A stretch of 64,000 nt of DNA from Ectothiorhodospiraceae bacterium (GTDB lineage Bacteria; Pseudomonadota; Gammaproteobacteria; XJ16; Halofilaceae): assembly GCA_007134775.1 (NCBI GenBank), contig SLKC01000042.1, positions 29,451-93,450 on the forward strand. The letters are read 5' to 3'. Both the position numbers and the translations under genes were made by a program. A model generated the notes under the pieces. That model saw only the letters and a program-made list of their open reading frames with translations. It had not been told where the DNA came from and did no database searches. Below, piece after piece: positions 13,459-16,947 of the stretch (its first letter is position 1; each line of letters starts with the position of its first letter).

Positions 13459-14379
13459 CTACGCGCGCTGTCGGCTCCACCAGCGCTGCAGCAGGCCGTG
13501 ACGGGGGGAGAGGATCAGGGCAACGAGGAACAGCGCACTGGCGACGAGCACGATGGTACCGCCGGAGGCGACATTGAAGATGAATGACAGGTAAAGCCCG
13601 ACGATCGCGGAGAAGACGCCGATGGCACCGGCGATGGCCATCATCAGGGGCAGGCTGTTGACCAGCAGATAGGCGGTCGCGCCCGGCGTGATCAGCATGG
13701 CGACGACGAGGATGATGCCCACGGTCTCCAGGCTAGCGACGATCGTGAGTGTCAGCAGCAGGATCAGGCCGTAGTGGATGACCCCGGTGGACAGGCCCAT
13801 GGCGCGCGCCTGCACGGGGTCGAAGGTGTAGAGGAAGAGCGGCTTGTAGGCGAGCAGTACGGCGCCGATGGCGATGACGCCAGCGCAGAGCGTGAGCAGC
13901 AGCGCCGGGTAGCCGACGCCGAGAACGTTGCCAAACAGGATGTGCATGAGGTGGGTCGAGGTCGCGATCTGGCTGATGATGACGACACCGAGCGCGAAAG
14001 CCGCGGTGAACATCAGTCCCATCGCCGCATCGGACTTGATCCGGGTGTGGCGTTCGATGAAGCCGATGCCGACCGAGGTGAGCGCGCCGGTGAGGAAGGC
14101 GCCGATGAAGAAGGGCCAGCCCAGCAGATGGGCGATCGCGACACCGGGTAGTACGGCGTGGGAGATCGCATCGCCGAGCAGCGACCAGCGCTTGAGGATG
14201 ACATAGCAGGAGAGGACGCCACAGATGCCGCCGACGATGATCGAGGTGAGCAGGCCGCGCTGCATGAAGCCGTAGCGGAAGGGATCCGAAAGGGCAGACG
14301 GCAGCAGATTGACCACGGCCATCACGGCGGCAATCAGCGCATCGACGACGCCGACACCGAAGGCAAAGAGTGTCTCCAT
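13459..14379 (-). CDS. Mn/Zn/Fe-type ABC transporter permease (ABC-3 family)
   Basis: 306 residues with about eight to nine membrane segments. ABC-3 family permeases (ZnuB, MntB, SitC, TroC) import divalent metals. Typical motifs: FMQRGLL, LLGDAISHAVLPGVA, IKSDAAMGLMFTAAFALGV, VGIILVVAMLITPGATAYLL. It overlaps the preceding ATPase by one base (TGATG). The tail SPRHGLLQRWW resembles the Mn/Fe branch more than ZnuB. No periplasmic binding protein is adjacent. Confidence 0.93.
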   Translation of the reverse strand: METLFAFGVGVVDALIAAVMAVVNLLPSALSDPFRYGFMQRGLLTSIIVGGICGVLSCYVILKRWSLLGDAISHAVLPGVAIAHLLGWPFFIGAFLTGALTSVGIGFIERHTRIKSDAAMGLMFTAAFALGVVIISQIATSTHLMHILFGNVLGVGYPALLLTLCAGVIAIGAVLLAYKPLFLYTFDPVQARAMGLSTGVIHYGLILLLTLTIVASLETVGIILVVAMLITPGATAYLLVNSLPLMMAIAGAIGVFSAIVGLYLSFIFNVASGGTIVLVASALFLVALILSPRHGLLQRWWSRQRA

Positions 14380-15188
14380 CAGGTGGCAACCGCTCGCGTG
14401 GTGCCCTCATCGCCGAACCATTGGGCTGCAACCGTGCGGGCGAGCATCTCTTCGGTGAGCATCTCGTCACGCTCGCCGGTAGCGATCACCCGGCGGTTGA
14501 GCAGCACGACATGGTCGGCGTGGGCACGCGCGCTCATCAGATCGTGAGTGACCGTGACCACAGTCCGGCCACGCGCCTTCTCGCGTTGCAGGACCTGCAT
14601 GATCAGCTCTTCACTCATCCGGTCGACCCCGGTCAGGGGTTCGTCGAGCAGCAGCACGGCGGCGCCCTGGGCGAGGACCCGCGCCATCAGCGTGCGCTTG
14701 CGTTGGCCACCCGAGAGCGCGGCGATCGGCTGATCGGCGAGTGCGGCAAGGTCGACGTCGGCCAGCGCGGCGGCCACTGCATCGTGGTGGTCGGGGCCGG
14801 CGAAGCGGCTGGGGAGGAAGCGGCGCAGCCCCGGTTCGCGGGCCATGCGGGCGAAGCGTGCCGACATCACGACAGCCCGCACCGAGGCGGGAAAATCCCA
14901 GTCGATCTGTTCCTGCTGCGGCATATAGGCGATGTCGCCGCGGGCCCGGACGCGCGTCGCGTCGTCGCCGAGTATCTGTACCCGGCCGCTGCGCGGGGCC
15001 AGGATGCCGACGAGCACCTTGAACAGGGTCGACTTGCCGGCGCCATTGGGCCCGACCAGGGTCACCAGCCGCCCCTGCGGCAGGTCGAGATCGATGTCCT
15101 CGATGACCGGGGCGCCGTCGTACCCGGCACTGAGCCCGCGGATGGCGATCGCGCTACCCGGGGATGGCGCGCGCTCGTTCATGGCCAT
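14379..15188 (-). CDS. Mn/Zn/Fe-type ABC transporter ATPase
   Basis: 269 residues. Walker A GPNGAGKST, the Q-loop stretch MPQQEQIDWDFPASV (typical of MntA/SitB/TroB ATPases), signature LSGGQRKR, Walker B AVLLLDEPLTGVD and the switch TVTHDLMSA. The first ATG (15188) has only a weak ribosome site; another ATG lies 6 bases downstream. First gene of a two-gene unit with the permease, behind a palindrome at 15267-15281 that is a good candidate for metal-dependent control. Confidence 0.93.
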   Translation of the reverse strand: MAMNERAPSPGSAIAIRGLSAGYDGAPVIEDIDLDLPQGRLVTLVGPNGAGKSTLFKVLVGILAPRSGRVQILGDDATRVRARGDIAYMPQQEQIDWDFPASVRAVVMSARFARMAREPGLRRFLPSRFAGPDHHDAVAAALADVDLAALADQPIAALSGGQRKRTLMARVLAQGAAVLLLDEPLTGVDRMSEELIMQVLQREKARGRTVVTVTHDLMSARAHADHVVLLNRRVIATGERDEMLTEEMLARTVAAQWFGDEGTTRAVAT

Positions 15189-15266
15189 GCGGGCGCTGGG
15201 CCACCGGCGCGCTGCAGGGGCGATGGGTCAGGCATTGGGGGCTCCGCGCCGCTGTTGGACTGCGTC

Positions 15267-15281
15267 TTAGACTCAGTCTAA
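15267..15281. promoter_or_regulatory. Perfect 15-bp palindrome, candidate metalloregulator operator
   Basis: TTAGACT-C-AGTCTAA is a perfect inverted repeat with a one-base centre, 79 bases upstream of the metal-transporter ATPase. The TTAG...CTAA ends resemble the layout of DtxR/MntR-family boxes. A manganese- or iron-sensing repressor is therefore the first guess, by analogy only. No candidate regulator gene lies next to it. Confidence 0.55.
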
Positions 15282-15359
15282 TTCTAGCGTGCCGTCCCCC
15301 GCAGCGCCACAAGCCGCTGTGTGCCCCCGGGCGTGCGCGGAGGCGGCCAAGGGAACCGC

Positions 15360-15788
15360 TCAGCCGGAGATGTAACGCTGCAACTCGGCGCGCTCATTCT
15401 CCAGCTCATCGATGCGTGCCCGCACCACGTCGCCGATCGAGATGATGCCCGTCAACTGTTCACCCTCCAGGACCGGCACATGGCGAAAACCACCGTCGGT
15501 CATCTGCCGCATGACGTAGTTCACGTCGTGGTCCGGCGTGCAGCACTGCACCTGCGGTGTCATCAGATCGGCGGCGGTGAGGCGGGTGAGGTCGGGCCCT
15601 TCCCCGGCAAGGGCATGCACGATGTCGCGTTCGGAGAGGATCCCGACCATATGATCATTTGCGTCAGTCACGACCACCGCACCGATGCGTCGACGTTTGA
15701 GCTCCTCGACGACTTCGAGGATCGGGCGATCCGGTCTCACCGTGGCCACTCCACCGCCCTTGCGCTGCAGAATCCGTGAGAGTTTCAT
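15360..15788 (-). CDS. CBS-domain pair protein
   Basis: 142 residues from ATG 15788, supported by GGGGAGGA seven bases upstream; a longer upstream extension looks non-coding. Two tandem CBS motifs fill the whole protein: first about residues 8-65 (PILEVVEELKRRRIGAVVV, VGILSERDIV), second about 75-130 (GGFRHVPVLE, GIISIGDVV). Stand-alone CBS pairs bind adenosine nucleotides or NAD and act as energy sensors or partner regulators. The C-terminal charged helix may mediate pairing. The partner is unknown. Confidence 0.92.
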   Translation of the reverse strand: MKLSRILQRKGGGVATVRPDRPILEVVEELKRRRIGAVVVTDANDHMVGILSERDIVHALAGEGPDLTRLTAADLMTPQVQCCTPDHDVNYVMRQMTDGGFRHVPVLEGEQLTGIISIGDVVRARIDELENERAELQRYISG

Positions 15789-15924
15789 GTTGCGGGTCCT
15801 CCCCATGGCTTGCGGGTCGACGCAGTTTGCTGCCCAACCCCGTGTCACTTTCCAAGGATGCGGGAATGCGCGGGACAGTCAATATCCGGGATTGTGCGCA
15901 TCGCCATCGTCGGCCGTGTCGTGC

Positions 15925-16947
15925 TCAGCCGCCGATGTAGGACATCTCCACCTTCTGCACAGGCACGGTCTCGTCGGAGCGCAGTTCCGAGTATCGATCG
16001 GCTCGGCTGCTCCAGATCGCCCGAATTTCCTCGTCGAGGCGCTCATCCGCGACACCCGAGCGCAGCAGGCCGCGCAGATCGGTGCCGACACCCGCGAACA
16101 GGCAGGTATAGAGCGCGCCCTCCGCCGACAGGCGCGCCCGCGTACAGCCGCGGCAGAAGGGCTGGGTCACCGAGGCGATGATGCCGATCTCGCCCGTGCC
16201 GTCGCGGTAGCGCCAGCGCTTGGCGACCTCGCCTGGGTAGTTCGGCTGCAGCGTCTCCAGCGGGAAGACGGCGTCGATGCGATCGCGGATCTCGCGGGCG
16301 GTGACGACATCGTCGAGACGCCAGCCGTTGGTCGTGCCCACATCCATGAACTCGATGAAGCGCAGGACATGGCCGCTGCCGCGGAAATAGCCCGCCATCC
16401 GCGGGATCTGGTCGTCGTTGACGCCGCGTTTGATCACTGCGTTGATCTTGACCGGTCCGAGTCCCGCATCCCCCGCGTTCTCGATGCCCTCGAGCACCTT
16501 CGCCACCGGGAAGCCGACGTCGTTGACCGCCATGAACACGGCGTCGTCGAGCGCGTCGAGGCTGACCGTGACCCGTGACAGACCGGCGTCGGCGAGCGCG
16601 CGGGCGCGCGCGGCACTGAGCAGAGAGCCGTTCGTGGTCAGCGCGATGTCATTGATGCCGTCGACGGCGGCGAGGCGCTCGACCAGCCGTTCCAGGTTGG
16701 GCCGCACCAACGGCTCGCCGCCGGTCAGGCGGACCTTGCGTACACCGTGCGCGGCGAAACGACGGGCGAGGCGCTCGATCTCGTCGAAGTCGAGCAGCGC
16801 CGAACGCGGCAGAAAATCGTGGTCGGCGCCGAACTGCTCCTTGGGCATGCAATAGGTGCAGCGGAAGTTGCAGCGATCGGTCACCGAGATGCGCAGATCG
16901 CGCAATCCGCGGCCGAGCTGGTCGACGGGTTGGCTGGCGTCGGACAT
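15925..16947 (-). CDS. moaA: GTP 3',8-cyclase MoaA (molybdenum cofactor synthesis)
   Basis: 340 residues. Radical-SAM enzyme that, with MoaC, converts GTP to cyclic pyranopterin monophosphate. The N-terminal cluster cysteines are Cys26, Cys30 and Cys33 (CNFRCTYC). The C-terminal second 4Fe-4S cluster cysteines lie in [19 protein letters not shown], and the protein ends in GG as MoaA does. Divergent from cysG across a 221-base gap. No other moa gene is in the window. Confidence 0.97.

Follow-up and report, generated by a model that had tools for sequence, protein, structure and literature searches.

A palindrome upstream of a metal ABC transporter operon as a predicted operator of an Irr-like repressor in Gammaproteobacteria

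Introduction

Irr is placed, with few exceptions, in the alphaproteobacteria by passages of a review (PMC7762939). In Rhodobacter sphaeroides, Irr binds before the rubrerythrin-like gene mbfA, where the box lies over the transcription start, and before ccpA, which encodes a cytochrome c peroxidase; Bradyrhizobium Irr binds before bfr and a rubrerythrin-like gene (both from excerpts of PMC3413700). The ICE half-site of S. meliloti mbfA is given as TTCTAA in a passage of PMC7540006. According to excerpts of PMC8638967, PerR and Irr both have Asp as the discriminating residue of the metal site and Asn in the DNA helix, Irr is without CxxC, and the perRA autoregulatory sequence is similar to Irr boxes.

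For Gammaproteobacteria, a prediction of Irr-type and PerR-type regulators is already known from Acidithiobacilli (excerpts of PMC2631029); the sites predicted in those excerpts are Fur sites, with no box or regulon for the Irr-type or PerR-type proteins. The available part of PMC3050691 reports no PerR-group protein among the three Fur homologues of Nitrosomonas europaea. No box or regulon of a gammaproteobacterial Irr-like protein turned up among the matches listed from the open-licence literature, though one could be published in a subscription paper or be in a database.

Here we describe a 15-base palindrome in the window (the whole stretch of DNA that was analysed, 64,000 nucleotides), ahead of genes for a metal ABC transporter. 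We predict, with high confidence, that it serves as operator for an Irr-like repressor of the Fur superfamily, one with the box TTTAGACTNAGTCTAAA that controls peroxide defence and iron use.

The palindrome and the putative target operon

The perfect palindrome described in the original prediction is present (Table 1), and it is, as that prediction said, rich in A and T (10 of 15 bases) in GC-rich surroundings (66% G+C in the window). It lies in an intergenic gap, 78 bases upstream of the start codon of the ATPase gene. The palindromic form alone is unremarkable, because the window has 12 perfect 7-1-7 palindromes and about 7.9 are expected from base composition. The particular sequence is beyond chance. 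The exact palindrome has a single copy in the 3.06-Mb genome, where about 0.0007 are expected from the base composition of the window, and three more copies have one mismatch (about 0.04 expected), so that four copies are found at up to one mismatch; the reversed control pattern has none at this level. There is one copy with two mismatches (about 1.0 expected) and there are six with three mismatches (about 16 expected), and at up to three mismatches the control is found 19 times and the palindrome 11 times. With no excess at two or three mismatches, weaker copies are indistinguishable from chance by count.

Table 1. Positions of features around the palindrome, in window coordinates
Feature	Position	Strand	Evidence or remark
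ABC-3 family metal permease, second gene of putative operon	13459..14379	-	PF00950; SloB subfamily 256.6 bits, below the cut-off of 460
Mn/Fe-type metal ABC transporter ATPase, putative target	14379..15188	-	PF00005; best NCBIfam match MntA, 208.8 bits, below the cut-off of 400
Gap of 171 bp between the ATPase gene and the stop of the CBS-domain gene	15189..15359		contains the palindrome
Weaker overlapping copy TTGGACTGCGTCTTA, 3 mismatches	15255..15269	.	shares 3 bases with the palindrome
Candidate operator, perfect 7-1-7 palindrome TTAGACTCAGTCTAA	15267..15281	.	excess of this sequence in its own genome; motif found together with an Irr-like gene
TAGAAT, -10-like hexamer (by eye)	15281..15286	-	last base is the first base of the palindrome
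Two-CBS-domain protein gene	15360..15848	-	upstream, same orientation; no visible tie to motif
MoaA-like radical SAM protein gene (by eye)	15925..16947	-	upstream, same orientation; no visible tie to motif

The weaker overlapping copy, which the original prediction does not mention, may be a second dimer site with an offset of 12 bp. When the gap was scanned for promoters, no full sigma-70 site came up; the TAGAAT hexamer, if it serves as a -10 element, would put the operator over the transcription start. Hexamers that look like -10 elements by eye are found beside the box at the window, SUF and fur sites. The box is near the presumed transcription start, a position that fits repression.

The substrate of the importer is probably manganese. 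By eye, no gene for a substrate-binding protein is seen beside the ATPase and permease genes, and three ZnuA-type binding proteins are encoded elsewhere in the genome.

Copies of the motif in the genome and genus

The original prediction named random placement across the genome as evidence against an operator. We found instead that all four copies with at most one mismatch precede metal, iron-sulphur or iron-storage genes, and the operator-like look of the palindrome and its membership of a motif that precedes metal and iron genes held up. The copies with one mismatch precede a gene for a Tat-exported high-potential iron-sulphur protein (HiPIP; contig C37), a SUF regulator gene followed by an apparent sufB (C46, 17 bases before the regulator gene) and a bacterioferritin gene (C94). 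A copy with two mismatches, by count not beyond chance, lies between a bamE-like gene (by eye) and fur (C1).

Both sister genomes (G001 and G002) have copies with at most one mismatch before the SUF regulator and before bacterioferritin (the latter by profile in G001, by eye in G002). Across the three genomes of the genus, 9/9 copies at this level precede metal, iron-sulphur, iron-storage or SUF regulator genes, and the SUF-regulator site is found in 3/3 genomes, 17 to 36 bases before the gene. One sister genome has an exact palindrome (G001, C22) before a gene of the arsenic-efflux subfamily NF037962, presumably a family of heavy-metal exporters.

The Irr-like protein

Three genes of the window genome exceed the Pfam cut-off for the Fur superfamily. 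They encode a classical Fur (193.9 bits), a Zur-like protein (82.9 bits, under the cut-off of 167) whose gene adjoins znu genes, and an Irr-like protein of 148 residues (C12:6712-7158). By eye, the irr-like gene has a nadA-like gene on one side and, on the other, genes for the binding protein and permease of a ferric-iron-type ABC system; these transporter genes are another likely site of regulation. The closest family by profile is alphaproteobacterial Irr, the Irr of Bradyrhizobium, Rhizobium and Rhodobacter. The protein has 117.8 bits against IrrA (cut-off 150) and 108.9 bits against Irr (cut-off 170), below the cut-off in both cases, and only 97.9 bits against PerRA. Across the survey described below, one of the 369 genomes reaches the IrrA cut-off (G203, 171.9 bits) and 156 of the 157 genomes with a hit fall under it, a difference from the alphaproteobacterial proteins. 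The nearest named relatives are two Aquisalimonas proteins (64-66% identity).

The protein also has likenesses to PerR, as known from Bacillus subtilis and as PerRA and PerRB from Leptospira. Among solved sequences its nearest are 5nl9, a FUR-family regulator that we take to be from Leptospira, and then PerR 2fe3. Residues H43, D91, H97, H99 and D110 are invariant in 20 gammaproteobacterial proteins and align with PerR 2fe3 at positions that we assume to be the regulatory-metal ligands of PerR (three His and two Asp). This five-ligand set appears to be kept in alphaproteobacterial Irr too, so it does not separate PerR from Irr. The protein of the window genome has HHH at 97-99 and is without cysteine. 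As in alphaproteobacterial Irr, an HxH motif is found in 108/108 gammaproteobacterial Irr-like proteins and a CxxC after the DNA helix in 0/108, with one protein having an N-terminal CxxC.

The regulators predicted in Acidithiobacilli belong to the same class and superfamily, and Acidithiobacillus proteins are found among the gammaproteobacterial Irr-like set in our tree, in which much of the gammaproteobacterial backbone is left open.

Copies before irr-like genes

We searched upstream of 80 named irr-like loci, which were chosen by protein alignment, independently of the motif, and of which 78 were parsed. In 31/78 loci a copy with up to three mismatches lies in the stretch that runs from 200 bases ahead of the irr-like gene to 20 bases within it; dinucleotide shuffles (100 rounds) have a mean of 0.26 and a maximum of 3. 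Among 30 unnamed irr-like loci, 12 have a copy, nine of them at 30-37 bases before the start. No upstream copy is found at 47/78 named and 18/30 unnamed loci. The window genome's own irr-like gene has none, the best match in the 6.7 kb around it having five mismatches, and the two Aquisalimonas irr-like genes have none upstream. In a lineage that is sister by the tree (locus L129), the irr-like gene is convergent to a rubrerythrin operon and TTAGAATTAGTCTAA is found before that operon.

Distribution of the motif and of candidate binders

The same 369 gammaproteobacterial genomes were scanned for the motif, the SUF regulator, the Irr-like protein and MntR. We scored 151 genomes, those above a gap in the scores, as Irr-like-positive, and six weak hits near 1e-19 as negative. 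This occurrence in 151/369 genomes differs from the distribution given in the passages of the review PMC7762939. The motif at up to one mismatch is found in 104/151 Irr-like-positive and 33/218 negative genomes (OR 12.4, p=2.8e-26, a p-value that overstates independence, as do the others here, the genomes being phylogenetically related). With one genome per family (158 genomes), the counts are 47/64 and 12/94 (OR 18.9, p=7.6e-15). There is little change when the six weak hits are moved to the positive side (108/157 and 29/212), and with our own genus removed the motif is found in 101/148 positive and 33/218 negative genomes. The reversed control pattern has the opposite lean (47/151 positive, 96/218 negative). 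It is commoner in Irr-like-negative genomes, so base composition would bias against the association. Among the Irr-like-positive genomes, 47/151 have no copy at up to one mismatch. Six Irr-like-negative genomes have at least two copies (G132, G209, G216, G242, G291 and G305); Irr-like-positive congeners exist for G209, G216 and G291, and the assemblies of G209 and G216 are incomplete.

From the data of the genus, our initial hypothesis for the binder was the SUF Rrf2-family regulator (TIGR02944), an IscR-like iron-sulphur sensor that would repress itself, suf, HiPIP, bfr and the transporter. The site before its own gene in all three genomes of the genus and the iron-sulphur and iron targets there agree with this, but the 369-genome table shows no positive association: the motif is found in 30/105 genomes with the family and 107/264 without it (OR 0.59). 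In 75 genomes that have the SUF regulator and are without a strong Irr-like hit there are 12 sites against 58 control sites, and outside the genus no copy precedes the regulator gene in 29 placed loci (0/9 in other Irr-like-positive and 0/20 in negative genomes; 32 of 33 loci were placed overall). We dropped this candidate and regard it as quite unlikely.

OxyR binding is very unlikely, even though the genes behind the motif (katG, peroxiredoxin, ccp, fur, suf and manganese import) look like the OxyR regulon of E. coli, which includes such genes, and the OxyR unit ATAGnTnnnAnCTAT is likewise 15 bases long. The OxyR site has four parts, and the core GACTNAGTC in a single 15-mer is unlike it; OxyR would also leave unexplained the copies before irr-like genes and the tie of the motif to the presence of an irr-like gene.

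The palindrome could also be a chance occurrence at this locus while the motif is real elsewhere. For chance speak the many perfect palindromes of the window and the fact that we see the ABC operon as a target in this one genome only. Against it, the genome has no other exact copy, and the palindrome precedes a metal gene, with a -10-like hexamer beside it and a second copy that overlaps it; we consider chance highly improbable.

The original prediction was reminded of DtxR/MntR half-sites, an idea that fared badly. It proposed a search for MntR/DtxR-family genes, and an MntR gene is present in the window genome (C193; NF008273, 209 bits), as in all three genomes of the genus; the operon downstream of the palindrome is of Mn/Fe type, and MntR would repress it as a manganese importer. 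However, MntR, the one DtxR-family group that the survey covered, is found in 15/369 genomes, with the motif in 4/15 of them against 133/354 without it. Three of the four genomes with both are of the window's own genus, and the motif is found in one of the 12 genomes that have MntR but lack an Irr-like protein. Elsewhere, rubrerythrin and peroxidase genes predominate behind the motif, and the MntR of the window genome exceeds the cut-off for the E. coli-type family, whose box is quite different from the palindrome. We rejected MntR on these counts and hold it to be extremely improbable as the binder.

Classical Fur was set aside, since Fur occurs broadly and its consensus is GATAATGATAATCATTATC-like, a box that the palindrome, by inspection and in agreement with the original prediction, does not resemble.

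Genes downstream of the box in other genomes

We examined 69 of 201 sites, 30 of them loci from the motif survey and 39 picked mainly from Irr-like-positive genomes; 54 are in Irr-like-positive and 15 in negative genomes. Within 260 bases downstream of the box, we found rubrerythrin at 30 sites, gpmI at five, di-haem cytochrome c peroxidase/MauG at four, KatG-type peroxidase at three, and peroxiredoxin and Fe/Mn superoxide dismutase at one each. These six recognised target types account for 44/69 sites; the other 25, of which 15 are in Irr-like-positive genomes, have assorted neighbours or none. Rubrerythrin is found at 25/54 sites in Irr-like-positive and 5/15 in negative genomes, counts that include the loci L072, L089 and L219. 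XseB is found near the box 22 times, in most cases (by eye) as a neighbour that diverges from rubrerythrin. The distance from box to start codon is 20-100 bases for most copies. Among the 25 Pfam families listed (of 48) at these 69 sites there is no metal ABC importer, which counts against the ABC operon as a target.

The bases that flank the box, which were not part of the search pattern, are not the same at the 44 target sites as at the 25 others: T before the box in 64% vs 16%, and A after it in 75% vs 28%.

The operator of an Irr-like protein is supported by the resemblance of these genes to known Irr and PerR targets (rubrerythrin, CCP, KatG, peroxiredoxin, bfr and suf); peroxide-defence genes behind the box are a likeness to PerR. 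The targets of R. sphaeroides Irr in the excerpts of PMC3413700 are of the same kinds as the genes behind the gammaproteobacterial box. The box suggests a control route for rubrerythrin in many environmental gammaproteobacteria; a whole-word search of a paper on the rubrerythrin lineage (PMC5114695) found no mention of regulator, promoter, Fur, PerR or Irr.

At three loci (L062, L064 and L085), the palindrome has on one side gpmI, the gene for a 2,3-BPG-independent phosphoglycerate mutase, and on the other a divergent gene of the ArsR family. Pfam searches over the open reading frames that flank the sites found five ArsR-type and five gpmI genes, and at such loci the box may be bound locally by the ArsR protein. 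An exact palindrome in another genome (L234; G368, C8) precedes a protein for which the first 300 residues have no NCBIfam match at E 1e-8.

Proposed mechanism

An Irr-like dimer would bind the 7-1-7 box, which would overlap or abut the core promoter, and so repress transcription. The signal may be haem or iron repletion, as for alphaproteobacterial Irr, or peroxide, as for PerR; either would release the repressor. Release would turn on peroxide-defence, iron-storage and iron-sulphur genes, and here also the importer. The genes behind the box are those needed under peroxide or when iron is plentiful; the signal and the direction of the response are our inference. A manganese importer under the peroxide reading fits better than an iron importer under the haem reading.

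A regulator that occurs in 151/369 sampled gammaproteobacterial genomes would thereby have a likely binding site and a list of genes.

Box sequence and the DNA-reading helix

The predicted operator is like that of alphaproteobacterial Irr in its 7-1-7 form near a promoter and differs from it in sequence. The gammaproteobacterial box is GACT..AGTC, with the half-site GTCTAA, against TTCTAA for ICE. The Per box, TTATAATNATTATAA, is unlike it too. A Lys precedes ATVYN in the DNA helix of 105/108 gammaproteobacterial Irr-like proteins and in none of six alphaproteobacterial Irr proteins. The three exceptions have Leu (L097, the protein of G203), Arg (L101) and Leu (L119).

The G203 protein groups with alphaproteobacterial Irr in the tree (100/99), and its gene order is irr, then TTTAGAATCATTCTAT, then rubrerythrin; this box beside irr is of the TTAGAAT type, the alphaproteobacterial type of half-site. 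Upstream of the other gene for a Leu protein (L119) we found no GACT-type copy and no obvious GAAT-type one. We hypothesise, from this one gammaproteobacterial case and the literature, that the Lys reads the new C:G pair.

We tentatively suggest that many Gammaproteobacteria might have a second, so far undescribed peroxide and iron regulon beside those of OxyR and Fur, although we would not put this at even chances. Its regulator would be an Irr-type protein in which the metal site of PerR is kept, the structural zinc site is absent and the helix Lys gives a box of its own (VSL with GAAT..ATTC in alphaproteobacteria, VSK with GACT..AGTC in gammaproteobacteria). If true, the protein would stand between PerR and Irr in evolution and would show cleanly how one residue can switch an operator. 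Whether Irr proteins descend from peroxide sensors becomes a directly testable question.

A gene for a ThiO-like FAD oxidoreductase is found, by protein pattern, near 69 of 110 irr-like loci (L097-L206). Two Acidithiobacillus irr-like loci adjoin a ThiO-like gene, and not the peroxiredoxin named for PerR in the excerpts of PMC2631029.
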